From: Dethiosulfatarculus sandiegensis
GTDB taxonomy: Bacteria > Desulfobacterota > Desulfarculia > Desulfarculales > Desulfarculaceae
Assembly: GCF_000931935.2 (NCBI RefSeq)
Contig: NZ_AZAC01000010.1
Coordinates: 1-35,000, forward strand
Direction of reading: 5' to 3'
Length of the DNA stretch: 35,000 nucleotides
Positions within the stretch are counted from its first letter, which is position 1, and the number at the start of each line of letters is the position of its first letter. The notes under the pieces are model-generated. The model did not search any database and was not told the origin of the DNA. It saw only the letters and a program-made list of their open reading frames with translations. Positions 583 through 14,099 of this stretch are shown here, piece by piece. A program made the position numbers and the translations under genes.

Positions 583-1665
583 CTACTTGCCCATTAGGCG
601 CAACAGACGCACTCCGCCATATAAAGACCGGGGCAAGCGCAAATTAGTGAAAAGAATATCCGCAGGCATGGGGGAAAATACTTTTTCCCCAAAAACCTGA
701 GCCATTTGCCGCCGGTTTTGGCAAGAGGCCAATCGCACACGCAATGCTGTAAGTAGCGGCGCTTTTCCGGGGTCGGCCAAGAGGACTTGGTTTATAATAA
801 AGCGGCAACTATTCTGGATCCGGTAGGTTCCACCTCCTGCATTTTGATATTGGTCACGCGCATCCGTCCCCAAAGTCTGAGCCAAAAGATTCAAGGCCAA
901 AAAAAGGGCCTTTTCCACACGCAACTTCTGGGCCTGATCAATGGTGTAAAGCCAGTCCAGGTTGGGATTTGATTTTAGGAGAAAATGTATATCCATCAGA
1001 TGCCTAAGCTTTTGCCAATAGTGCTGTGGGCCGTGGCAGGCCAGCATTAAAAGGCAATCTTCATCTGACAGGGTGTGGCAGGTGCGGCCCGCAATGCCGC
1101 ACTCCACCTTGCGGGAAAAAAAAGGCTCTACATCACTAAACGGGCTAAAGGGGCCGGTTAGTGGTTTTATATGTAGATCCAGAACCAAGTCACCACGCAG
1201 CAGCGTAAAAACCCCTTTGCGCCTTTCAATCGGTTCCACTACTTCTCTTTTTTTCGGGAAATAATATGTAAAGCCATCAGATATTAATAGGCTTAGGGCA
1301 AAATCAACCTGTTCAGGCCGGACCAAAAGATCCAGGTCCGCATAAGAACGCAAATAGGCATTTTTGTAATGCCTGTTCGCCAGGGCGGGCCCCCTGAATA
1401 CCAAGGTTTCAATCCCCCCCTGTTTCAAACAGTGCAATATAGCTTTGAGTTGTTTTTGTAACTTATCAATACGCGCCTGATGAGTCACCCTGGCTAACAA
1501 GCGATCATGGCCCGAAAAATCACCGGATATCGGAATGCCTTTTAGTTTATGACGCAAAAAGGGCTCAATGCCGTGAGCTTTGGCAAAAGCCACAAGACCG
1601 GAAATATCTGTCAAACAGGGCGAACCACCCTGGATAAAAGCGCGTATTTCACTAAGATAATTCAT
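583..1665 (-). CDS. Uncharacterised nucleotidyltransferase family protein
   Basis: A 360-residue protein of the uncharacterised nucleotidyltransferase type (NTase_5-like) common in RiPP and capsule clusters. The catalytic region is LVFRGPALANRHYKNAYLR followed by the S-Y-A-D-L-D-L-L-V segment, which supplies the two metal-binding aspartates, and a later DLVLDLHIK strand supplies the third acidic residue. Such proteins often accompany PqqD-like and HPr-kinase-like proteins in lasso-peptide-like and Scm-type cassettes; their substrate is unknown. I place the start at the ATG at 1665 rather than at the TTG four codons earlier. No clear ribosome binding site is visible. The gene starts only about 100 bases from a truncated transposase, so its native promoter may have been replaced. 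Confidence 0.7.
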   Translation of the reverse strand: MNYLSEIRAFIQGGSPCLTDISGLVAFAKAHGIEPFLRHKLKGIPISGDFSGHDRLLARVTHQARIDKLQKQLKAILHCLKQGGIETLVFRGPALANRHYKNAYLRSYADLDLLVRPEQVDFALSLLISDGFTYYFPKKREVVEPIERRKGVFTLLRGDLVLDLHIKPLTGPFSPFSDVEPFFSRKVECGIAGRTCHTLSDEDCLLMLACHGPQHYWQKLRHLMDIHFLLKSNPNLDWLYTIDQAQKLRVEKALFLALNLLAQTLGTDARDQYQNAGGGTYRIQNSCRFIINQVLLADPGKAPLLTALRVRLASCQNRRQMAQVFGEKVFSPMPADILFTNLRLPRSLYGGVRLLRLMGK

Positions 1666-1739
1666 AAAAAACAACAAATTTAAAGGTTATAAGCTACCGC
1701 CACTTCCACCGACTCTACATTCTTCCTGCGGAAGGGTAA

Positions 1740-2132: not shown

Positions 2133-2545
2133 GAGGCAAAAACAGGGACGATAAGCCTTTCCCTCGACCTATAATCACGAGAAACACTGAACGGCTTTTT
2201 AGGTGGGATAACGTGCTTTTTGAAATGTCTTTCCGCTAGCTTTTTGGTGGTTGGTGCTTTCCGTGCCTTGCTCCTAGTGGTGGTGACATCTTCACCTTTA
2301 TCACGCTTGGCAAGATACGACCTGGCTTCTTTGTGGCCCAAGTTAATTGGCAATCTACAGTAAGACCAAGTGAATAGTTTTATTTGCCTGACTTCAAGAG
2401 TTCTGCACTCACGGAAAAATACTTTCCGGTCTGTGGGCCTGATCCGTCCACTTAAGCCTGAACTTTCCGTATCCCACTTAACATATTCTTTACCCGTTGG
2501 CGCTAAGTTGTTTAAGAGCCTCTTGGTAAATCCTGGCATTTTCAT
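2066..2545 (-). pseudogene. Tyrosine integrase, N-terminal fragment
   Basis: The 159-residue frame begins like P4-type phage/island integrases: FTKRLLNNLAP, then a KWDTESSGLSGRI segment, a K-V-F-F strand, NLGHKEAR, a K-R-D-K-G-E-D helix end, and a core-binding domain start with a LAERHFKKHV helix and R-L-I-V-P. The normal protein has about 400 residues with a C-terminal R-H-R-Y catalytic domain. Here similarity stops near 2130, where the IS1595 relic begins. The catalytic domain is absent, so it cannot recombine. It marks a former integrative element next to the left-hand cluster. Confidence 0.65.
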
Positions 2546-3582
2546 CTCGTAACAGCCGGGAGGCTTTGTTTTATTTTCTGTTGACGAAAGGCCCGTGTAA
2601 TATTGAAAAATTTTATAAGAGTGACTTCTTCTAACAGTTACTCTGAGGACCTTTATTGTTGGCTATCATTTAACAGTAACCCGTTTATTGTTCTGTACAA
2701 TTTTTTTATCAACCCAGGAAAGCCTGATTTTGGATACCATATGGGTGCCAGATTACCCCAATTAGATGGAATCTTAACGTATTACTACAAAATTGCAAAT
2801 CCTGTAAGTTCAATAAATACAGCTAGTAAATAAATCCGGGTAAGCTTGCGTAAATGGTCCTGGAAGAGCTTAAATCCTCAGGACTTAAATTTTTGCAAGT
2901 TTGAATTGTGCCCCAGACGACAAACTATTTATAAGTAGTTTAAAGTACTGCATTGTTGGGCGAGATTCCCCTCAGCTTGCAGCTTTTCTATAGAGGTTAG
3001 GAAGATTACCTTATAGCTTCTCTTCGTAAGTCGATAACCACATGAATTTGTTTAACATGCTTAGAAATAGAAGAAAGACTGTATTGTCAATTCGAAATAT
3101 ACAAAAACTTTACACTTTGCCTGTCAACTCTAATTTTTAAAAATAGTCAGGTTAAGGGTGTCGGATAGGTTGGATTCAATGTGAATTAAAAAATCCATGA
3201 ATGGATTCATTAAAGGTAATCACACTATATTAGATTAAGTAACAGGCTTTTTGAAACAAAATTAAACCTCCTGATTTTACCTTAATATATTATATATTTT
3301 AAAACTTGTTATTAATGTGGTACGAGTTTTTTCCTTTGGCTTTATGCCCATATAACACTAGGCATGAATAGTCCACACATTTTATTGTGCCAATCCAGAT
3401 AAGCCTAAGCGCTCTGCTTACCGGCTCAGCCCTTTATGGCGTAGCAAACCCTACGATTCAACCCCATATCAAAAGGCAACAAAACTTCCATGAATAGACA
3501 AGAGAAGAGGACTAAATTTTTTATCTGGTGATCTAAAGTAAAACCGATACGATGGGGGGAAAAGGCACAAAGAGCCATATAT
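2546..3582. other. AT-rich stretch without a recognisable gene
   Basis: About 1 kb between the integrase fragment and the IS3 relic. One open frame at 2603-2833 has low-complexity, unfamiliar content and no ribosome binding site. The AT content is clearly higher than in the chromosomal genes to the right, which fits an accessory, transferred segment. No tRNA, repeat array or terminator was seen. Confidence 0.4.
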
Positions 3583-3918
3583 GTGAGCTCACAAAACTTT
3601 ATAAAATATAATTTACCTGGGTGGGGTTCTGCTGCTATATCGATTTTGTGCTACCTGGAATTTTTAGTGGAGTACGGCACGCAATGGTCAGCCATCAGTT
3701 CGATAGCTCCCAAAGTGGGTTGCACCTGCGAGACCCTGCGGCGCTGGGTGAGGCAAGCCGAGCGTGATCAGGGTCTTCGCACCGGTACGACAACATCAGA
3801 GCGTGAAGAGCTCAAGCAACTGAAACGTGAGAACCGTGAGCTACGGCGGGCTAATGAGATACTGCGCCAAGCGTCGACGTTTTTCGCCCAGGCGGAGCTC
3901 GCCCGCCTACGGAAGTGA
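3583..3918 (+). pseudogene. IS3-family transposase OrfA, 5' truncated
   Basis: From about codon 30 the protein is a typical IS3 Orf[18 protein letters not shown], a helix-turn-helix [10 protein letters not shown], then the leucine-zipper region [19 protein letters not shown]. The first 28 or so residues do not resemble the usual start of this family, so the natural 5' end and left inverted repeat are lost. It overlaps the following OrfB frame by 4 bases, as expected for the programmed-frameshift layout of IS3 elements. Confidence 0.75.
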
Positions 3919-4710
3919 TGGTTTCCTTTATCGACAATCAACGCCAGGCCCACGGGGTCGAGCCGATCTGCGCGATGCTGCCGATCGCCCCGCCGGTCTA
4001 CTATGAGCACAAGGCCAGACAGGCCAATCTTAAGCGCCTGCCGAAAAAGGCCAAGCGGGATGCCTATCTGAGCGTTGAGATACGCCGGGTGTGGAATGAT
4101 AACTTCCGGGTTTATGGAGCGCGCAAGGTATGGCGCCGGCTTCTTCGTGATGAAATAGAAGTGGCCGGTGCACGGTGGAGTAATGGGTCTGACCGGTGCA
4201 GTGAGGGGCAAGAAGGTTAGGACCACCACGCCGGAAGATGACGCTTTTTGTCCGACCGACTTGGTCCGGCGCAACTTAACGGCCGAGCGTCCCAATGAGC
4301 TGTGGATCGCCGATCTCACCTATGTTTCGATCTGGCTTGCCCTCGCCTACGTGGCCTTTATCATCGATTTATTTGCCCGCATGATAGTGGGCTGGTGGCT
4401 ATCAAATTCGCTCAAAACAGACCTGCCCCTTAGCGCTGACAACGCCATGGCCGAATCGGTTATCGGCTTATACAAAACTGAAGTGATCAACAAACAAGGC
4501 CCCTGGAAGCATCGCCAGGCCGTGGAATTCGCCACTTTGGCTTGGGTGGATTGGCTCCAACAACCGGTGCTTGTTGGAGCCAATCGGAAATATCCCGCTT
4601 GCCGAGCTGGAACAGATGTATGATCAGGATAAACAGGGTCAGACCATGGTGGCCGAGACTCAAACAAAAACCTCTCCGGATTTCCCGGGGCGGTTCAGTA
4701 TGAAACAACG
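3915..4710 (+). pseudogene. IS3-family transposase OrfB, frameshifted and internally deleted
   Basis: The reading moves through three frames. Positions 3915 to about 4155 give the N-terminal HTH region (VSFIDNQRQAHGVEPICAM and VYGARKVWRRLLRDE). About 4180-4560 give the catalytic part starting MGLTGAVRGKK, with ELWIADLTYV holding the first catalytic Asp. From about 4560 a further frame gives the C-terminal N-N-R-C-L-L-E-P-I-G-N-I motif. After SNSLKTDL the sequence jumps to SADNAMAESVIG, so about 50 residues with the second catalytic Asp (the HHSDRG region) are missing. The element is dead. The 3' boundary is approximate because no right inverted repeat was found. Confidence 0.75.
4550..4584. 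repeat. Perfect 14-bp inverted repeat with 7-base loop
   Basis: ATTGGCTCCAACAA at 4550-4563 is the exact reverse complement of TTGTTGGAGCCAAT at 4571-4584. It lies inside the IS3 OrfB relic exactly where the reading frame shifts. There is no T tract after it, so it is unlikely to be a terminator. Confidence 0.85.
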
Positions 4711-5070
4711 CCTTGGTGCGGTTCCTATGAAAGGGATGGTGATTTTGTTGGTATAGCCTGGTTTGGATTCACTTTTGACATCTCCCCGGCATAGACAACA
4801 AACCTGATCAACACCTCCCTTTTTTTCCGTGACCAGAACTTCATCCGGAAGGTTGGATTTTTGCAGAACTTGTTGACTACGTCCCAAGCAGACTGCCCGG
4901 GCAATGGCTTTTCATGATAAAATCAGCGATTGACAAGGAGATGAATCCAATACTAACATCTATAGTAACTTGTTAAAATTACAAAATAATATCGTGAATT
5001 ATTTCACGGAGCCATGATAGCCGCATCAAGAGCGATTCTTAATAATTTTTTTTTATAAAAGGAGTTCCAC
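4711..5070. other. Intergenic stretch, no gene supported
   Basis: Between the IS3 relic and the His-rich gene. A minus-strand open frame at 4660-4887 contains a CCLC motif, but it overlaps the IS relic and has only a TTG start, so I do not call it. The last 100 bases are AT-rich and probably carry the promoter of the His-rich gene. Confidence 0.4.
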
Positions 5071-5331
5071 ATGGAAGGAAATCACGAGCATAAACATCTT
5101 CATAATCATGAGCATTCCCATGTTCATGAGCATAAACATTCCCACGGGGAGGAGACACACACGCACCAACATACTCATACCCACGAGCATGAACACTCCC
5201 ACGAACACAGCCACGCACATTCACACGGTGGTGCAAAAGAGATCCATGATCACGATCATACCGGTGAGCACGGCCCTCATGATCACGACCATCCTGCGCA
5301 TTCTTCAGAAGTTCATGAGCATAACCATTAA
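5071..5331 (+). CDS. Small His-rich metal-binding protein
   Basis: An 86-residue protein in which more than a third of residues are His, mostly as H-x-H or H-E-H steps with Glu, Asp and Ser between them. No signal peptide or membrane segment is visible, so it is probably cytoplasmic. Such His-rich proteins (Hpn-like, or the His-rich loops of nickel chaperones and zinc transporters) bind Ni, Zn or Cu and act as stores or buffers; the metal cannot be told from sequence. The ATG has a good AAAGGAG ribosome binding site. It stands alone, with AT-rich spacers on both sides. Low-complexity sequence makes homology uncertain, but the frame is clearly real. Confidence 0.7.
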   Translation: MEGNHEHKHLHNHEHSHVHEHKHSHGEETHTHQHTHTHEHEHSHEHSHAHSHGGAKEIHDHDHTGEHGPHDHDHPAHSSEVHEHNH

Positions 5332-5838: not shown

Positions 5839-5868
5839 TTGCCATAACCAACCTCTCCAATTTATATT
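5839..5868 (+). promoter_or_regulatory. Sigma70-like promoter of the RiPP operon
   Basis: TTGCCA at 5839-5844 (5 of 6 match to TTGACA), an 18-base spacer, and TATATT at 5863-5868 (5 of 6 match to TATAAT), in an AT-rich setting. Transcription would begin near 5875 and leave a leader of about 85 bases before the precursor ATG. Confidence 0.45.
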
Positions 5869-5960
5869 AAATATGCTTGTATATGCTTGCCCAATTCCAC
5901 AACAAAAATAACTTCGAAAAAGGGCCTCTTCAGGTGAGGTCCATACAAAGGGAGGAACAA

Positions 5961-6449
5961 ATGGGCAAAGAAAAAGACTTCCGGAAAAAAGCTCCGGGAA
6001 AGGCCTTTACCATTGTTGCCGTAGAAGAAGATGTCGCTCAAATGGCTAAAGGTGACAAGACCTGGAAGAAAAACGGACTCTTTACAATCCAGGAAGTAGA
6101 AGAAGAAGCGGCTTTAATGCCAAAAGGTGACAAGGATTGGGCAGAGCCTGCCATCTACCGGATACTGCCTGTCGATGTGGAAGAATCCGTAATGGCCAAA
6201 GGGGATCGCACCTGGAAAAAAGAAGCGGTTTTCCGCATAGTGCCGGCCGATAGCGAGGAATCGGTAATGGCCAAAGGGGATAAGGACTGGGCCACTGACG
6301 ATGTCTATTGCATCATCCCGGTGGAAGAGGATGAGGCCATGATGGCCAAGGGTGATCGCACCTGGAAGAAAGAAGGAGTCTACAGCATTGAACCGGTGGA
6401 GTTGGGCCCGGATCAGATGGCCAAGGGAGACAAGGACTGGAAAAAATAG
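5961..6449 (+). CDS. Multi-core RiPP precursor-like protein with six KGDxxW repeats
   Basis: A 162-residue protein. After a 14-residue basic start (MGKEKDFRKKAPGK) it consists of six tandem 25-residue units starting at residues 15, 40, 65, 90, 115 and 140. Each unit has a hydrophobic strand (pattern x-[FY]-x-I-x-x-V/A), an acidic stretch, then M-(A/P)-K-G-D-(K/R)-(T/D)-W. KGD lies at residues 30, 55, 80, 105, 130 and 155, with Trp five residues after each Lys. Units 1, 3 and 5 end in (K/R)TWKK; units 2, 4 and 6 have KDW. I start it at 5961 because a perfect GGAGG lies 5 bases upstream; the frame is open further upstream but without such a site. It is followed after 3 bases by a SPASM enzyme. 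The motif resembles the streptide core AKGDGW. Function as a RiPP substrate is inferred. Confidence 0.8.
   Translation: MGKEKDFRKKAPGKAFTIVAVEEDVAQMAKGDKTWKKNGLFTIQEVEEEAALMPKGDKDWAEPAIYRILPVDVEESVMAKGDRTWKKEAVFRIVPADSEESVMAKGDKDWATDDVYCIIPVEEDEAMMAKGDRTWKKEGVYSIEPVELGPDQMAKGDKDWKK
6003..6446 (+). repeat. Six tandem 75-bp coding repeats
   Basis: The coding repeats have a period of 75 bases (25 codons) with the last unit 2 codons shorter. Conservation is strongest in the ATGGCCAAAGGxGA block that encodes M-A-K-G-D. Odd and even units differ consistently after GD, so the array looks built from duplications of a 150-base pair of units. Confidence 0.85.
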
Positions 6450-6452
6450 CCG

Positions 6453-7859
6453 GTGCCGTCTTTGCAACAAAATATAAAGCCGGCATATTCATTTTCCTTT
6501 GAATCCGGCTTTATAATCAGGCAAGAGCGTTCTTCCGGACTGCTCTTTGCCAGGGGCGGAACACCAGCCTGGGAGTTGGACCCCTATCACACGGATTTTC
6601 TGCGCCTTCTTTACCTGGGTGGAGGCTATGAACAAGCATGTTCAGCGGTAATGCAGCTCCACCGCCTGGAACATTTTGCACCACAAGTTGAGATCCTCAC
6701 CCAAATCGGGGTCCTGACTCCCTGTAATCAAACAAAACAATTACCGAAACCTTTGTTTGCCGATCTTGTTGATCAAGTGCGAACTGGACGGATCAAGGCG
6801 CAGGGGTTTGAATGTCTGGCAGGCCCAAGCTCAATAACCTTGTATGTAACCATGAAATGCCAGCAAGACTGTGATTTCTGCTTTCTCACCCCAAACGTAA
6901 AGGCACTGCCCCAGAAAGTCGGTTTGGATGATTGGCTTTCGGTTATGGACCAAGCCGCGGACATGGGAATCCCCGGCCTGGCCATTTTAGGAGGAGAGCC
7001 AACCCTATACCCCGATATGCCGGAAATAATAAAAAAGGCCGGAGAATTAAAAATTCCCCTGGCCTTGACCACCAATGGACTTTTCATTCCCGAACCATTG
7101 CTCAAGGCCTTGGAGGAAAATCCCAATTCACTGATCTGCCTATCCCTGGAATCACCGAGAAAACACATTCATGAAAAAACCGTGGGGCAACCTGAGCATC
7201 TGGTTTTTGCCAATTTGAAAAAAATCGCTGCCAGAGGGATCAGGTTCAATGTGAACACAATTGGGCTGGGACAGCCTCTGGAAGACCTGAAGGAAATATA
7301 CGATCTCTGCGCCGAACTGGGCGCAGAGGTCTGGTTTTTAAACCTGCTATATCGTAATGGACGATCAGACGTTAATTTCCCGGGCAACCTCTGGTATGCA
7401 GAGGTTGATAAAGCCCTGCGCCAATATGTTGCCGACCAGAACACATCCACATCATATCAGCTCTTTGGCTGCCAGCTTTATTGGACCTATACCGCCTCCC
7501 AATACCAGGCCAAAGTCCTTCCCACCAGATACAACAAACTGATATCCGGCTGTTCGGCCGGGGCCTATCCTTTGGAAATATTGCCCACCGGCGAAGTGCT
7601 TCCCTGCATCAATCTGCCTTACCCAAAATATGTAGCCGGTAATATAAAAGATAACAGCCTGGAGGATATTTGGTTCAACGCACCGGTTTTAAATAAAATT
7701 CGCCAAAAAACCAAGATTCCGGACCAGTGCCGGGGTTGCCATTTGGTCAAAATTTGTCAAGGCGGGTGTTTGGCCCGAAGAATCAAGCCGCATGATCCAT
7801 TAGTGAATCTTCCAGACCGTCTCTGCCCGGTTTTGAATGAGGAGGACCTGGTGTCATGA
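6453..7859 (+). CDS. Radical SAM/SPASM peptide maturase with N-terminal PqqD-like domain
   Basis: A 468-residue protein. Residues 10-90 look like a fused PqqD-type leader-binding domain. The radical SAM cluster motif is C136-x3-C140-x2-C143, followed by GGEPTLYP at 180-187, which binds SAM. The C-terminal SPASM domain has the full set: C367-x12-G380-x4-C385, C426-x2-C429-x5-C435-x3-C439, and C458, so two auxiliary Fe-S clusters are expected. Relatives such as StrB/SuiB, PqqE and AnSME modify peptides, here most likely by cross-linking side chains in the repeats encoded 3 bases upstream. The start is GTG at 6453; it has no strong ribosome binding site, suggesting coupling to the precursor. The next gene overlaps it by 4 bases. 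Confidence 0.85.
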   Translation: MPSLQQNIKPAYSFSFESGFIIRQERSSGLLFARGGTPAWELDPYHTDFLRLLYLGGGYEQACSAVMQLHRLEHFAPQVEILTQIGVLTPCNQTKQLPKPLFADLVDQVRTGRIKAQGFECLAGPSSITLYVTMKCQQDCDFCFLTPNVKALPQKVGLDDWLSVMDQAADMGIPGLAILGGEPTLYPDMPEIIKKAGELKIPLALTTNGLFIPEPLLKALEENPNSLICLSLESPRKHIHEKTVGQPEHLVFANLKKIAARGIRFNVNTIGLGQPLEDLKEIYDLCAELGAEVWFLNLLYRNGRSDVNFPGNLWYAEVDKALRQYVADQNTSTSYQLFGCQLYWTYTASQYQAKVLPTRYNKLISGCSAGAYPLEILPTGEVLPCINLPYPKYVAGNIKDNSLEDIWFNAPVLNKIRQKTKIPDQCRGCHLVKICQGGCLARRIKPHDPLVNLPDRLCPVLNEEDLVS

Positions 7860-9214
7860 CTCAAAAAATTCCTTCTAAAAGGCGTTTGTTTCGCCTTATT
7901 ACTCTGGGCTGCTCAAAAAACCAAGTCGATTCGGACAAACTCTGCACACTGTTAAAGGAAAACGGCTATAGCGCTGCAAAGGGATCCCAAAAACCGGATG
8001 TAATATTTTTAAACACCTGTTCTTTCACCCATGAGGCCCGGGAGGCTACTTATAAAAGAGTGGAAAACCTGGCCCGGCAATCTGAAAAACTGAATTGCTA
8101 TTTTGTGCTCTTGGGCTGCCTGCCCAATTATCTGGACCATAATCAAATAAAGATGTCCCTGCCTGTCCATGCCCTGGTCACGACAGACTGCTACTTGCTC
8201 CTCCCGGAAATCTTGGAAAAGATGTTTACAAACCGGCCATTCAAGTCAAATCCTGCTCCAGAATCATTTGCCCGATTCCTCAAACTGAGCCCAACCGCCT
8301 CGTCTATAAACCAAAGTGCTTTTTTAAAACTCTCTGAGGGCTGCTCCAATAAATGCACTTTTTGCTCAATACCGCTCATTAGAGGACCTTTATACTCCCG
8401 CTCTGCCGAAGAGATAGTAAAAGAAGCTAAAATGTTAACAGAGTCAGGAGTATTGGAGCTGAACCTGATAGGACAGGAAATAACAGCCTATGGACAGGAC
8501 CAGCCAAACCTGCCGGACCTGGCCGGGCTTTTGCGGCTTTTACTTAAAAACACCCAAGCAAAATGGATTCGCCTAAATTATTGTCATCCCACGAATTTTA
8601 CAGAAGAACTCATAGATTTGACGGCAAGCGAACCAAGGATATGCCCTTATTTGGATCTGCCCCTGCAGCATATCAGTCAACAGATGCTTAAAGCCATGGC
8701 CAGAGGCTACAGCTCTGATCAGGTCTTCAGGCTGCTGGATAAGCTTTTCCGAAAAATCCCCAGACTACAGATAGTCAGCTCCTTTATTGTTGGCTTTCCG
8801 GGAGAGACCCAAAAACACTTTAATGAGTTGCTTGAGTTTATAGACCAGGGCTGGTTCCGGTATATAAATGTCTTTCCATTTTCACGGGAAACAGGAACCA
8901 GGGCGGAACTGTACCCAAACAACAATTCCAGCCGGGAGATAAAAGAGCGGCAAAGAATTCTCACCCAAGCCCAGCGCCAAGTATTCACCAAACAGGCGCT
9001 AAAATGGAAAAGTGAGTCAATTTCCGTAATTCTGGAAGGCCCTAACCGAGATTTCCGTTTTAAAGACTCCTATCCCCTGATGGGTCGCAGTTTGTGGGAC
9101 GCACCGGAAGACGCCAGAGTTTTTCTGCGCACCAACTCCGAAAGCTTCCCCAAAGGCATAATAAAGGCCAAAATTGAAGGCAGGGACGGATACGACCTCC
9201 TGGCGGTTTCGTAA
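7856..9214 (+). CDS. RimO/MiaB-like radical SAM methylthiotransferase
   Basis: A 452-residue protein with all three parts of the family. The N-terminal UPF0004 domain has C19 (LGCSKNQVDSD), C55 (NTCSF) and C88 (LLGCLPN) for the auxiliary cluster. The radical SAM domain has C163-x3-C167-x2-C170, with the neighbouring RSAEEIVKEA and YLDLPLQHIS motifs. A TRAM domain fills the last 70 residues (GRSLWDAPED to GYDLLAV). The overall pattern is closer to RimO, which methylthiolates the beta carbon of an Asp in ribosomal protein S12, than to tRNA-acting MiaB. Some RimO-typical residues are changed (NTCSF for NTCGF; NYCHP for the usual YLYP). It overlaps the SPASM gene by 4 bases (ATGA), and a GAGGAGG site precedes it. 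It may be a paralog that acts on the KGD repeats, or simply the cell's RimO. Confidence 0.8.
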   Translation: MTQKIPSKRRLFRLITLGCSKNQVDSDKLCTLLKENGYSAAKGSQKPDVIFLNTCSFTHEAREATYKRVENLARQSEKLNCYFVLLGCLPNYLDHNQIKMSLPVHALVTTDCYLLLPEILEKMFTNRPFKSNPAPESFARFLKLSPTASSINQSAFLKLSEGCSNKCTFCSIPLIRGPLYSRSAEEIVKEAKMLTESGVLELNLIGQEITAYGQDQPNLPDLAGLLRLLLKNTQAKWIRLNYCHPTNFTEELIDLTASEPRICPYLDLPLQHISQQMLKAMARGYSSDQVFRLLDKLFRKIPRLQIVSSFIVGFPGETQKHFNELLEFIDQGWFRYINVFPFSRETGTRAELYPNNNSSREIKERQRILTQAQRQVFTKQALKWKSESISVILEGPNRDFRFKDSYPLMGRSLWDAPEDARVFLRTNSESFPKGIIKAKIEGRDGYDLLAVS

Positions 9215-9223
9215 AGGATTGCA

Positions 9224-10084
9224 ATGAAAGGATCACTTAAAATAGAGCGCTTATCCCTGAAAAGAGATCTTAACGGAATTGTAGAGCTCCACCGCAGTGA
9301 ACTGTCGGATCAGAAAAGCCTGCCTAATGATAATGATCTCAAGGGCTGGTTCAACCTGGGCGGCCCCTGGCTGGCAAAGGAGCTGGCCCAAAGCTACCTA
9401 AAAACCATGCTTAAGTGCAATGCGGCCATATTGGTGGGATACTTGGAAGGCCGTTTGGTCGGAGAAATTGAGATCGAACCCATTGATGAAAAAAACGCTT
9501 ATCTGGCCATAATCAATATTCACAACAGTCTCCAAGGCTCCGGACTGGGTAAAAACATGCTGCTTCATGCTTTTGCCTTTTTAAGGAAAAGGGGTTTTCT
9601 CAAGCTGATAACCATGCCGGAAAGTCACGCCCTGGGGTTTTACGCTAATTTGGGCTTTCAAAAAAACCTTACCAGATACGAGGTAAGTCAAGACAGCCAA
9701 GACGAAACCACCCATCAACTTTGGCAAGAAGAAAATAAAATACCTGGGGAAAATATCCTGAACCTTGGCAACAATCAGCCTCCCATACACCACCACAACC
9801 AATTTCACATGAGCTATCCCAAACTCATAGGCAAAAAAAGCGCCGCGCCCTTTATTTGGAAGAACCGCGATGCTCCTATATGGCTGGGTTTTTCAGGGGA
9901 AGACAAATCCAATCCGGCCTGGTCTTTTTTATGGGGAGAAGCGCCTTCAGACTGGGTCCGGCTGTTTAATGAGCGGGCCTTTCAAATGGGTTATCCGGGT
10001 TGGTTCAGTTTTTGCGGGGAAAAACATCTTGGCTCATTGTCGCCTGTGGATCAGGTGGAATGGTGGGAAAAAAGGCTTGATTAA
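9224..10084 (+). CDS. GNAT-family acetyltransferase with unknown C-terminal domain
   Basis: A 286-residue protein. Residues 5-155 form a GNAT domain: the acetyl-CoA loop is QGSGLGK at 104-110, followed by the GFYANLGFQ motif typical of the last helix. Residues about 160-286 form an extra part rich in Trp, Gly and aromatic residues that I do not recognise. It starts 9 bases after the methylthiotransferase with an AAAGGA site, so it is the last gene of the same operon; the next gene is convergent. Acylation of Lys or of the N-terminus of the matured peptide is one option; self-protection of the producer is another. Both are inference from position. Confidence 0.75.
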   Translation: MKGSLKIERLSLKRDLNGIVELHRSELSDQKSLPNDNDLKGWFNLGGPWLAKELAQSYLKTMLKCNAAILVGYLEGRLVGEIEIEPIDEKNAYLAIINIHNSLQGSGLGKNMLLHAFAFLRKRGFLKLITMPESHALGFYANLGFQKNLTRYEVSQDSQDETTHQLWQEENKIPGENILNLGNNQPPIHHHNQFHMSYPKLIGKKSAAPFIWKNRDAPIWLGFSGEDKSNPAWSFLWGEAPSDWVRLFNERAFQMGYPGWFSFCGEKHLGSLSPVDQVEWWEKRLD

Positions 10085-10093
10085 CTCTTTATC

Positions 10094-10984
10094 TCACTCA
10101 AGCTTTTTCAGAGCCAGGCTGGCCTTGATATTGCCCTGCCTTGCAGCCCGCTCATACCAGTAAACAGCCCTTTTTCGATCCAGGGGTGCGTAGTAATCGC
10201 CCAGCATGGCCTGGGCTCCGCTGTGACCCAGTTTGGCGGTTTTTTTAAGCCACATGATAGCCTTTTCCTTGCTTTTCTCCCCCGCCTTACCTTTGAGGTA
10301 AATATAGTAGAGCCTGAAGGCGGCCTTGGCCTGGCCTTTTTCGGCCGCTTTTTCATAATAAACTGACGCCCGGGCATAATCCGATTTTTGGCCGGGCTGG
10401 GGAAACTCAAGGCTGTGCCCTTTGTCATAGGCCGTTTCAGCCTCAGACCAGGGAGGCCTGGTCTGGGAACGACGGAAGCGCCAGTCATGCTCGCCGCCCA
10501 GTTTACCGCATCCCGGTGGTCCGGTTTTGTTGCGGTTAATCCCCGCACCCGTGGGGTCGGCTGAATAAATCACTGCCTGATGCCCCGGCTTGGGCTGGCC
10601 GTTATTCACCGAATGCCACGAAGCAGTGGCACTGTTCCTTATAATGGCCTTTACCTTGCCCCTGGCCACCTCCCGATAAAAATAGCCCTGTCTGGGCACC
10701 AATACGGACAACTCGTCACCAACCCTGGGCAGGCAAACAGGGTCTGATCTGGGGCATTTTGAACTATCAGGGCTTAAAGGAGGACCTTTGTGATCACAAG
10801 GCCCCCAGATAAGAATGGTGAGAGTCTCCGGGCCTGTGGCCGTTATATTGCCCAAAAGGGTTTCTGCCGACACCGGGTTTGCAATAAAAAAGAATGCAAA
10901 AATAAAAACAACTGACAACCCGGCTCTCAAACTGATTCCTGAGAGGTTTGAGGCATGCCTCCAGCCTGGGGCTTTAATAACCAC
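10094..10984 (-). CDS. Exported Sel1/TPR-repeat protein
   Basis: A 296-residue protein starting at GTG (10984) with an AAGG site 7 bases upstream. It has a long basic n-region, a hydrophobic segment GLSVVFIFAFFFIANP and a likely signal peptidase site after V-S-A near residue 40. The middle (about 45-180) has several Cys and an SH3-like strand pattern, and is unfamiliar. Residues about 195-290 form Sel1-like repeats (Y-A-R-A-S-V-Y-Y-E-K-A-A, then A-I-M-W-L-K-K-T-A and A-V-Y-W-Y-E-R-A-A). Sel1 repeats act as protein-binding scaffolds, often in the periplasm. It converges with the GNAT gene with a 9-base gap. Confidence 0.65.
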   Translation of the reverse strand: MVIKAPGWRHASNLSGISLRAGLSVVFIFAFFFIANPVSAETLLGNITATGPETLTILIWGPCDHKGPPLSPDSSKCPRSDPVCLPRVGDELSVLVPRQGYFYREVARGKVKAIIRNSATASWHSVNNGQPKPGHQAVIYSADPTGAGINRNKTGPPGCGKLGGEHDWRFRRSQTRPPWSEAETAYDKGHSLEFPQPGQKSDYARASVYYEKAAEKGQAKAAFRLYYIYLKGKAGEKSKEKAIMWLKKTAKLGHSGAQAMLGDYYAPLDRKRAVYWYERAARQGNIKASLALKKLE

Positions 10985-12242: not shown

Positions 12243-14099
12243 ATGCTGTTCGCCCAGATCATAGCCTTTATCCTGGTCATGGTGGTCTTTGAGGCCTACA
12301 CACCATCTCCTCCCACTCTTTCCTGGTTTGAGACCCTCTTCGCCTGCCTGCTGGCCGCTTTCTGGCTTTGGCTGGGAATCAAATTCGCCGGTCTTTTTTT
12401 CATCAAAAAGGTTCAGAGTGAAGGATACGCAAAAGACCCCGGCTCCCGGGCCCGGGCCTTTGTGGCCAAGGCCCATGCGGCCAGTGTTGCCTGTTTACTG
12501 TTCATGATCACTGCCCTGGACCTTAAAGCCCACCTGCTTCGGATACCCCACCTGGCCGAATCCGAGACCCTTTTGGGATTAAGCGCAGTGATTTTATTTT
12601 TCCTGCTTTCCCTGCTGGTCTGGGCCACGGTTTACCCGGTTGAAGAGCGTGTTTTAGGTCAAAGCCTTTCCCGCAAAAACTACATACTGGGCCAGGCCCG
12701 TTTTGTGGCTCCCGTGACCTTTCCCTGGTTCATGGTGGTGGTCTTAAGGGACCTTTTCAGTTTTTTGATTCCCCACGGCAGGGAACTTTTAAGCACCCAG
12801 GCCGGAGATATCGCCTTTTTATTGATTTTTCTTCTTATCATGGCCGCTTTTTTCCCGCCCTTGATCAGGGCGTGGTGGGGATGCCGCATCTGGCCCCAAG
12901 GCCCGGTTCGCGACTTGGCGGAAACGGTCTTGTCCCGGGCGGGTGTGAAGGTTTCAGCCATCCTTTCCTGGCCCATCTTAAACGGCCAACTGCTCACCGC
13001 CGGGGTGCTGGGGGTCTTTTCCAGGTTCCGTTATCTCCTGCTCACCCCTGCCCTAACCAGGGAGCTCACCCCCAGTGAACTGGCCGGGGTGGTGGCCCAT
13101 GAGGCGGGCCATGTTCACCATAAACACCTGCAAAAATATCTTTTCTTTTTTATCGGCTATTTTGTGGCGGCCTATGCCCTGACCGAGCCCTTGAGCCTTT
13201 TGTTGCAGGGGGGCTTGTACATTCTTTCCGGATGGTCCTGGGGCGCTAACATGCTTAGCCAGGAAGGCCCGGGAACAGCAGCCATAAGCCTTTTCATGGC
13301 CCTGCCCCTTGTTATTTTGATGGTCGTCTACCTGCGCTATATCATGGGCTATTTCATGCGGAACTATGAACGCCAGGCTGATTTTTTCGCTCTTCGCTTC
13401 ATGGGTGAGGCCGGGCCCTTGAGTCTGGCTCTGGAAAAGGTGGCCCTGCTCTCAGGCGATATCCGCCAAGCCCCTTCCTGGCACCATTTTTCCATTGCCC
13501 AAAGGGTGGAAGCCCTGGAAAGAGCGGAAGATGACCCGAAGGTCATAAAAATTCATGCCCGCAACCTGAAAAAATCCTTAAATATTTACTTAATCTGCCT
13601 GCTTTCACTGGCCGTATTGGGCTGGATTGCCCAAGGCATGGATCTTTCCCAGGGCTTAAGGCGGGCCACCATTGTCAGGCTGATGGAAAACCAGCTTGCC
13701 CAAACACCTTTGGACCCCAACCTTTCCATGACTTTGGGAATTATGAAATACGAATCCGGCCAGGAAGAAGAGGCCCTGCATTACCTGAGGCAAGCCGTGA
13801 GGCTGGCCCCCAGACACGCGGAAGCCTTAAACAGCCTGGCCTGGTTCTATGCCACAGCCAAGGATAAGGCTTTAAGAAATCCGGCCCAAGCCCTGGCCCT
13901 GGCCCAGCGAGCAGTGCAGATCGCTCCCCTGCCCCATATCTGGGACACCCTGGCGGAGGCCTTTTTTATAAACGGACGTCCCGATCTGGCCCTGAGTGCG
14001 GCCCGGGCGGCCCTGGCCGCAGGCCCCACCCAAAGGAAAGAATATTTCCTCAGCCAGATCAAACGCTTTGAGGAGGCGCTCAAAAACCGGAAACGCTAA
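12243..14099 (+). CDS. M48-family membrane metalloprotease with C-terminal TPRs
   Basis: A 618-residue protein. The N-terminal third has several membrane helices (about 2-17, 32-54, 80-95, 108-130, 155-177 and 186-206). The zinc site is HEAGH at 286-290, with the third ligand in NYERQAD (E376, with D380). Further membrane segments flank the site (about 297-320, 343-370 and 452-470). Residues about 485-610 form TPR-like helices (Y-E-S-G-Q-E-E-E-A-L-H-Y-L-R-Q-A). M48 proteases of the HtpX/Ste24 type clip misfolded or membrane proteins; a TPR tail suggests a partner or substrate platform. The ATG is preceded by AAAGAG. It seems to be monocistronic between a tRNA terminator and a hairpin. Confidence 0.8.
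   Translation: MLFAQIIAFILVMVVFEAYTPSPPTLSWFETLFACLLAAFWLWLGIKFAGLFFIKKVQSEGYAKDPGSRARAFVAKAHAASVACLLFMITALDLKAHLLRIPHLAESETLLGLSAVILFFLLSLLVWATVYPVEERVLGQSLSRKNYILGQARFVAPVTFPWFMVVVLRDLFSFLIPHGRELLSTQAGDIAFLLIFLLIMAAFFPPLIRAWWGCRIWPQGPVRDLAETVLSRAGVKVSAILSWPILNGQLLTAGVLGVFSRFRYLLLTPALTRELTPSELAGVVAHEAGHVHHKHLQKYLFFFIGYFVAAYALTEPLSLLLQGGLYILSGWSWGANMLSQEGPGTAAISLFMALPLVILMVVYLRYIMGYFMRNYERQADFFALRFMGEAGPLSLALEKVALLSGDIRQAPSWHHFSIAQRVEALERAEDDPKVIKIHARNLKKSLNIYLICLLSLAVLGWIAQGMDLSQGLRRATIVRLMENQLAQTPLDPNLSMTLGIMKYESGQEEEALHYLRQAVRLAPRHAEALNSLAWFYATAKDKALRNPAQALALAQRAVQIAPLPHIWDTLAEAFFINGRPDLALSAARAALAAGPTQRKEYFLSQIKRFEEALKNRKR

Follow-up and report, generated by a model that had tools for sequence, protein, structure and literature searches.

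Streptide and the other KxxxW peptides (StrA-StrB, SuiA-SuiB) are the closest described counterparts of the locus treated here, an operon of four same-strand (+) genes at 5961-10084 of a 35,000-nucleotide stretch (hereafter, the window; positions 1 to 35,000 of contig NZ_AZAC01000010.1) from Dethiosulfatarculus sandiegensis. They are ribosomally synthesized and post-translationally modified peptides (RiPPs), and the bond in streptide joins Lys Cbeta to Trp C7. Streptide chemistry is described for single small peptides of streptococci in the part of PMC13361665 available to us, and radical S-adenosylmethionine (SAM)/SPASM enzymes also form C-C bonds at Trp in the WGK/tryglysin and darobactin systems (available parts of PMC13361665 and PMC8326336); the core motifs of those two systems are unlike the KGDxxW of the window. 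With the streptide systems the window shares a core of KGD plus Trp, a full-length SuiB-type maturase with an RRE and eight cysteines in its SPASM part, and a precursor encoded directly upstream of the maturase. It differs from them in having six cores per precursor, a KxxxxW spacing, an added RimO-like methylthiotransferase and GNAT acetyltransferase, and no MFS exporter, and its proteins score under both curated family cut-offs (TIGR04079 and TIGR04080). On balance, we favour the view that the operon makes a streptide-like stapled peptide that is methylthiolated and acetylated. The features concerned are as follows (window coordinates; the core motifs were located by motif scan).

5961..6449, + strand: precursor gene (ATG start, stop at 6449; 162 amino acids (aa); six 25-residue units)
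6048..6065, + strand: core motif 1, KGDKTW
6123..6140, + strand: core motif 2, KGDKDW
6198..6215, + strand: core motif 3, KGDRTW
6273..6290, + strand: core motif 4, KGDKDW
6348..6365, + strand: core motif 5, KGDRTW
6423..6440, + strand: core motif 6, KGDKDW
6453..7859, + strand: radical SAM/SPASM maturase, putatively of the streptide (StrB/SuiB) type (GTG start, 468 aa)
6489..6725, + strand: N-terminal RRE-like winged-helix part of the maturase (residues ~13-91, boundaries approximate)
7856..9214, + strand: RimO-like methylthiotransferase paralogue (ATG start, 452 aa)
9224..10084, + strand: GNAT acetyltransferase (ATG start, 286 aa; C-terminal extension of ~120 residues)

An earlier note, made from the DNA letters alone, had proposed a RiPP-like operon of a KGDxxW tandem-repeat precursor, a SPASM maturase, a RimO-like enzyme, and a GNAT, and this proposal was supported. 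Only one of the six reading frames of the window contains KGD..W, which occurs there six times with a spacing of 25 residues in 5/5 intervals, and two or more copies appeared in 0 of 20,000 shuffles of the precursor protein. Each unit closes with M-A/P-KGD-K/R-T/D-W; the ending is K/R-T-W-K-K in units 1, 3, and 5 and K-D-W in units 2, 4, and 6. Lys1, Gly2, Asp3, and Trp6 are invariant across the six cores (the Asp of KGD being the sole invariant acidic residue within them), and position 4 is occupied by a basic residue throughout (K in 4/6, R in 2/6). The units are 33-62% identical to one another (15 pairwise comparisons over 24 residues, core included); the linkers diverge and the core is fixed. 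The core has a precedent: KGD-x-W is the signature of the streptide (KxxxW) peptides. In the whole genome, a DNA pattern for KGDxxW matched 29 places, namely these six and 23 others; the latter are near chance level, because a backwards control pattern gave 20 matches, and the surroundings of 6 of the 23 held a single motif in each case. Viral contigs gave 70 stretches with MAKGDxxW, one match each; one frame among them, of 1,062 residues, has two KGD..W, which was taken as chance.

Judged from its sequence and predicted fold, the maturase belongs to the streptide type, though diverged, and is related to SuiB over its full length. TIGR04080 was its best-scoring model (130.2 bits, vs 69.9 bits for the WgkB model), the SuiB fold runs along the whole protein from the RRE to SPASM (SuiB alignment from residue 14), and the SPASM part has eight cysteines. 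The fused PqqD-like (RRE) domain suggested in the note was supported at the level of fold (secondary elements of the predicted structure and the SuiB alignment), but gave no Pfam match. A protein search with the maturase returned 12 proteins at 1e-20, of which P0001 is the window's own and P0009-P0012 (26-28% identity) were left out of later comparisons; the closest relative, P0002 (77% identity), seems to be of metagenome origin, and P0003-P0008 are 29-44% identical. Genomes were searched with maturase profiles at E 1e-45, with at most four scored candidates in the listed genomes. No match beyond the window's own was obtained among 395 genomes of its phylum, and the starting genome alone was returned from 339 genomes of the phylum of the locus L025 and from 398 genomes of that of L029 (for these loci, see below). 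Thus, the maturase family is rare and patchy. With the single maturase protein as a query, 40/60 close genomes (own included) matched at 1e-15; 45 further places in close genomes, in which the alignments begin at query residue 111 at the earliest and thus lack the N-terminal part, were set aside, as were 45 maturase loci of viral contigs, none of which covers the N-terminal part before residue 92.

Genome contigs gave 44 maturase loci, of which five (L025-L029) matched nearly full-length, while the other 39 were partial and received the motif scan only; of three plasmid records, one had KGDGW (L192, Macrococcoides canis pB8). The six loci read were therefore L025, L026, L027, L028, L029, and L192. 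Note that L027 was excluded from the precursor count, as only 67 bases of its contig precede the maturase frame. In 5/5 judgeable loci (L025, L026, L028, L029, and L192), a same-strand KGDGW peptide is encoded upstream of the maturase, the opposite of SPASM relatives lacking the repeat peptide, which the note had named as evidence against its reading. The motif is AKGDGW in four of them and SKGDGW in L028; it occurs three times in L025 (evenly, 42 residues apart) and once in each of the others, and L026 and L029 have single-core precursors of 24 aa. KGDxxW was seen in the window alone among the loci read, the relatives all having the KGDGW spacing. The maturase has an MFS transporter as a neighbour in L026, L027, L029, and L192, a PPDK-like protein in L028, and a GNAT in L025. 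On pB8 (L192, 2168 and 2249-4748), the KGDGW peptide, which is missing from the gene table, occurs with an MFS transporter and a radical SAM maturase. L025 (9201-12228, metagenome-assembled genome of bacterium BP5.bin90) is a three-core canonical KGDGW streptide-type locus with a GNAT.

L025 resembles the window in gene order and in having a multi-core precursor (three copies of AKGDGWKTM), a maturase of the SuiB type, and a homologous GNAT; it differs in the canonical KGDGW spacing and in having no methylthiotransferase match anywhere on its contig. The window GNAT scored 42.7 bits on PF00583 (cut-off 20.7), has an acetyl-CoA-type motif, QGSGLG, at residue 104, and is 29% identical to the L025 GNAT over 182 residues (pair E 3e-17), while the two maturases are merely 27% identical. 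At E 0.001, the L025 genome gave a single match to the window GNAT (1.3e-12), which is the gene adjoining its maturase, and the genomes of L026-L029 gave none; at E 1e-8, 0/344 other genomes of the window's phylum matched. From these comparisons, the GNAT would belong to the pathway, because an otherwise rare GNAT adjoins two multi-core KGD-W precursors with diverged maturases; this sharing, in two loci, is the strongest sign of it.

The third enzyme passes TIGR00089 (335.7 bits, cut-off 251), misses the RimO equivalog TIGR01125 (334.2 bits, cut-off 356.95), and is also under the cut-off for the TRAM domain PF18693 (22.6 bits vs 27). It has the domain layout of RimO (TIGR01125; PDB 4jc0, E 1.2e-56) and both sets of three cysteines (C19, C55, and C88, plus C163, C167, and C170 in CxxxCxxC); unlike RimO, it scores under the equivalog cut-off, sits in a RiPP-like operon, and is extra to a housekeeping copy. 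The genome has four RimO/MiaB-type enzymes, three besides the operon copy: a housekeeping RimO (415.4 bits, over the equivalog cut-off; 31% identical to the operon enzyme), a MiaB (454.6), and an MtaB-like enzyme (344.4 on a partial match, cut-off 357.05). A search of the genome returned a single S12, whose RVKDLPGVRYH motif is the usual one. The operon enzyme and its closest relatives, P0014 (74%; fragment) and P0015 (42%), form a group supported at 100/99 in a 72-row tree.

The pathway that we propose is as follows, its chemical steps being deduced from the gene order, the repeats, the homologies, the extra methylthiotransferase, and the recurrence of the GNAT in a single diverged locus with KGDGW. 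Two elements would bring the core to the maturase, namely the RRE part and an acidic leader-like stretch repeated in each unit. The maturase would link Lys1 with Trp6, both invariant, in each KGDxxW, so that the ring would be larger by one residue than the KGDGW ring of streptide. Such crosslinking of Lys with Trp (or a near neighbour) is probable. RimO methylthiolates an Asp of ribosomal protein S12. We lean towards the operon's RimO-like enzyme acting on the peptide, where it might add a methylthio group, by analogy most plausibly on the core Asp, because RimO modifies an Asp of S12 and no acidic residue of the core other than the KGD Asp is invariant; the Asp itself is proposed tentatively, our doubts slightly exceeding our confidence. 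The GNAT may acetylate a Lys side chain or a new N-terminus, as tailoring or self-protection, and a protease encoded elsewhere would separate the units.

Several observations weigh against this proposal. The precursor reached only 13.8 bits on NCBIfam TIGR04079 (KxxxW peptide; cut-off 35), whereas the controls gave 51.6 (L025, three stretches, passing), 35.6 (L029), and 33.9 (L026); its cores are KGDxxW in 6/6 cases, with Lys and Trp five apart (KxxxxW rather than KxxxW), and none of 77 candidates in the protein database was a homologue at E 0.01. The maturase likewise missed the TIGR04080 cut-off of 500, although the 11 relative maturases scanned all did so as well (best 387.9; 218.6-387.9 bits at the six loci read). 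Neither an exporter nor a protease gene is present in the operon, while an MFS gene is found at 4/6 relative loci, and the predicted structure of the GNAT was poor (pLDDT 50), too poor for a structure search. As for the methylthiotransferase, none was found near the maturase at the six relative loci (neighbour genes and motif scan), so that the recurrence of the same four genes, by which the note had proposed to recognize a system, was not obtained; the full set was observed once, which we count as a weak point. In addition, the branches of the RimO-like tree were flagged as long by the program, and the rows next to the window's group, where named, are called S12 methylthiotransferases; thus, the tree leaves the substrate of the RimO-like enzyme undecided. 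Departures from conserved RimO columns were also similar in the operon enzyme (54/158) and in the own RimO (46/162); this count (background of 38 rows, with the nearest-outgroup P0023 and P0092 aligned but left out) was set aside, since the own-RimO control failed and the window enzyme was not singled out. The operon would work like a streptide pathway, yet it is not filed as a streptide member, because it fails on the KxxxW spacing and at the cut-offs of both families and lacks the neighbouring exporter.

The best surviving alternative, which we nevertheless consider unlikely, retains the streptide-like RiPP and gives the RimO-like enzyme, instead of tailoring, a spare or immunity role on ribosomal S12 or tRNA, its co-transcription being accidental or serving to protect the ribosome. 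Characterised RimO/MiaB-family members act on S12 or tRNA, and the score near the RimO cut-off (334.2), the similar number of column departures, and the missing methylthiotransferase at the six KGD-W loci all fit it. A genome that already has its own RimO, MiaB, and MtaB-like enzyme and one normal S12 argues against it, as do the position of the gene between the maturase and the GNAT with a 4-base overlap and the supported group with P0014 and P0015 (100/99), though the branches are long. SPASM enzymes form many bond types, and since position 4 is always basic and the spacing is unlike KGDGW, the maturase might instead join the Lys/Arg of position 4 to Trp, or use a ring partner outside KGDxxW; this we regard as quite improbable, because position 4 varies (Lys or Arg), in contrast to the invariant Lys1, Gly2, Asp3, and Trp6, and the frame of KGD and Trp is common to 5/5 KGDGW relatives. 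Equally improbable is a structural or binding repeat modified intact (e.g., a metal- or ribosome-binding scaffold) rather than a peptide precursor: it would suit an operon with neither protease nor transporter and the length of 162 aa for a streptide-type precursor (24 aa in L026 and L029), but the L025 multi-core protein has canonical streptide cores evenly spaced at 42 residues, and in the window the linkers diverge while the core motif is fixed.

Returning to the proposed stapled and methylthiolated peptide, the combination of multi-core KGDxxW, a streptide-type maturase, a RimO-like enzyme, and a GNAT would be new. In the open-licence PMC literature, no RiPP pathway with a methylthiotransferase or methylthiolation was found by title or start of abstract, and no paper joined streptide with KGDGW, while one review came up for streptide together with GNAT; in the available part of PMC8326336, 'methylthio' occurs in a reference entry only. 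The operon could possibly be the first RiPP pathway with a RimO-family enzyme, giving six Lys-Trp-stapled peptides whose ring encloses beta-methylthio-aspartate by recruitment of a ribosome-modifying enzyme, although we would not yet count on it. This residue is otherwise known on the ribosome. If the proposal is true, streptide chemistry would extend to precursors with several cores and to a wider ring, and a methylthiotransferase would have changed its target from the ribosome to a peptide. This would offer a short iterated substrate on which to study the choice of Asp by methylthiotransferases, as well as a tool for forming C-S bonds in peptides. The KGD-W peptides would also include a multi-core branch linked to a GNAT (the window and L025), alongside the MFS-linked ones.

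The gene coordinates bore out the claimed order and the intergenic gaps of 3, -4, and 9 bases, and a sequence resembling the ribosome binding site claimed for the precursor is also present. The upstream signals are the following.

5950..5956, + strand: ribosome-binding-like GGGAGGA, ahead of the precursor ATG
5839..5868, + strand: weak sigma70-like hexamers, TTGCCA-18-TATATT (10/12 matches)

The hexamers of the claimed sigma70-like promoter thus exist, but they are not evidence for a promoter, because 5 such sites were found in the scanned region vs 6.3 expected by chance. The region upstream of the operon is A+T-rich (GC 0.34); the GC of the operon coding DNA is 0.46-0.51, the window mean is 0.49, and several downstream genes are at 0.54-0.58.

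Elsewhere in the window, an NTP_transf_5 nucleotidyltransferase (PF14907, 150.5 bits) is encoded at 583-1677 (-); members of this family are sometimes near PqqD-type RiPP operons. IS3-like transposase pieces in several frames occupy 3583-4623 (+), with weak HTH_21 and rve matches just under the cut-off and an ALIL frameshift pseudoknot (Rfam RF01497) at 3876-3992. At 10094-10984 (-), convergent with the operon, lies a Sel1-repeat protein whose N-terminus looks signal-like by eye, and 2 kb downstream of the operon (12243-14099, +) an M48 peptidase with TPR repeats, a possible but unlinked precursor protease. An 86-residue, very His-rich protein at 5071-5331 (+) gave no Pfam match and is possibly metal binding.
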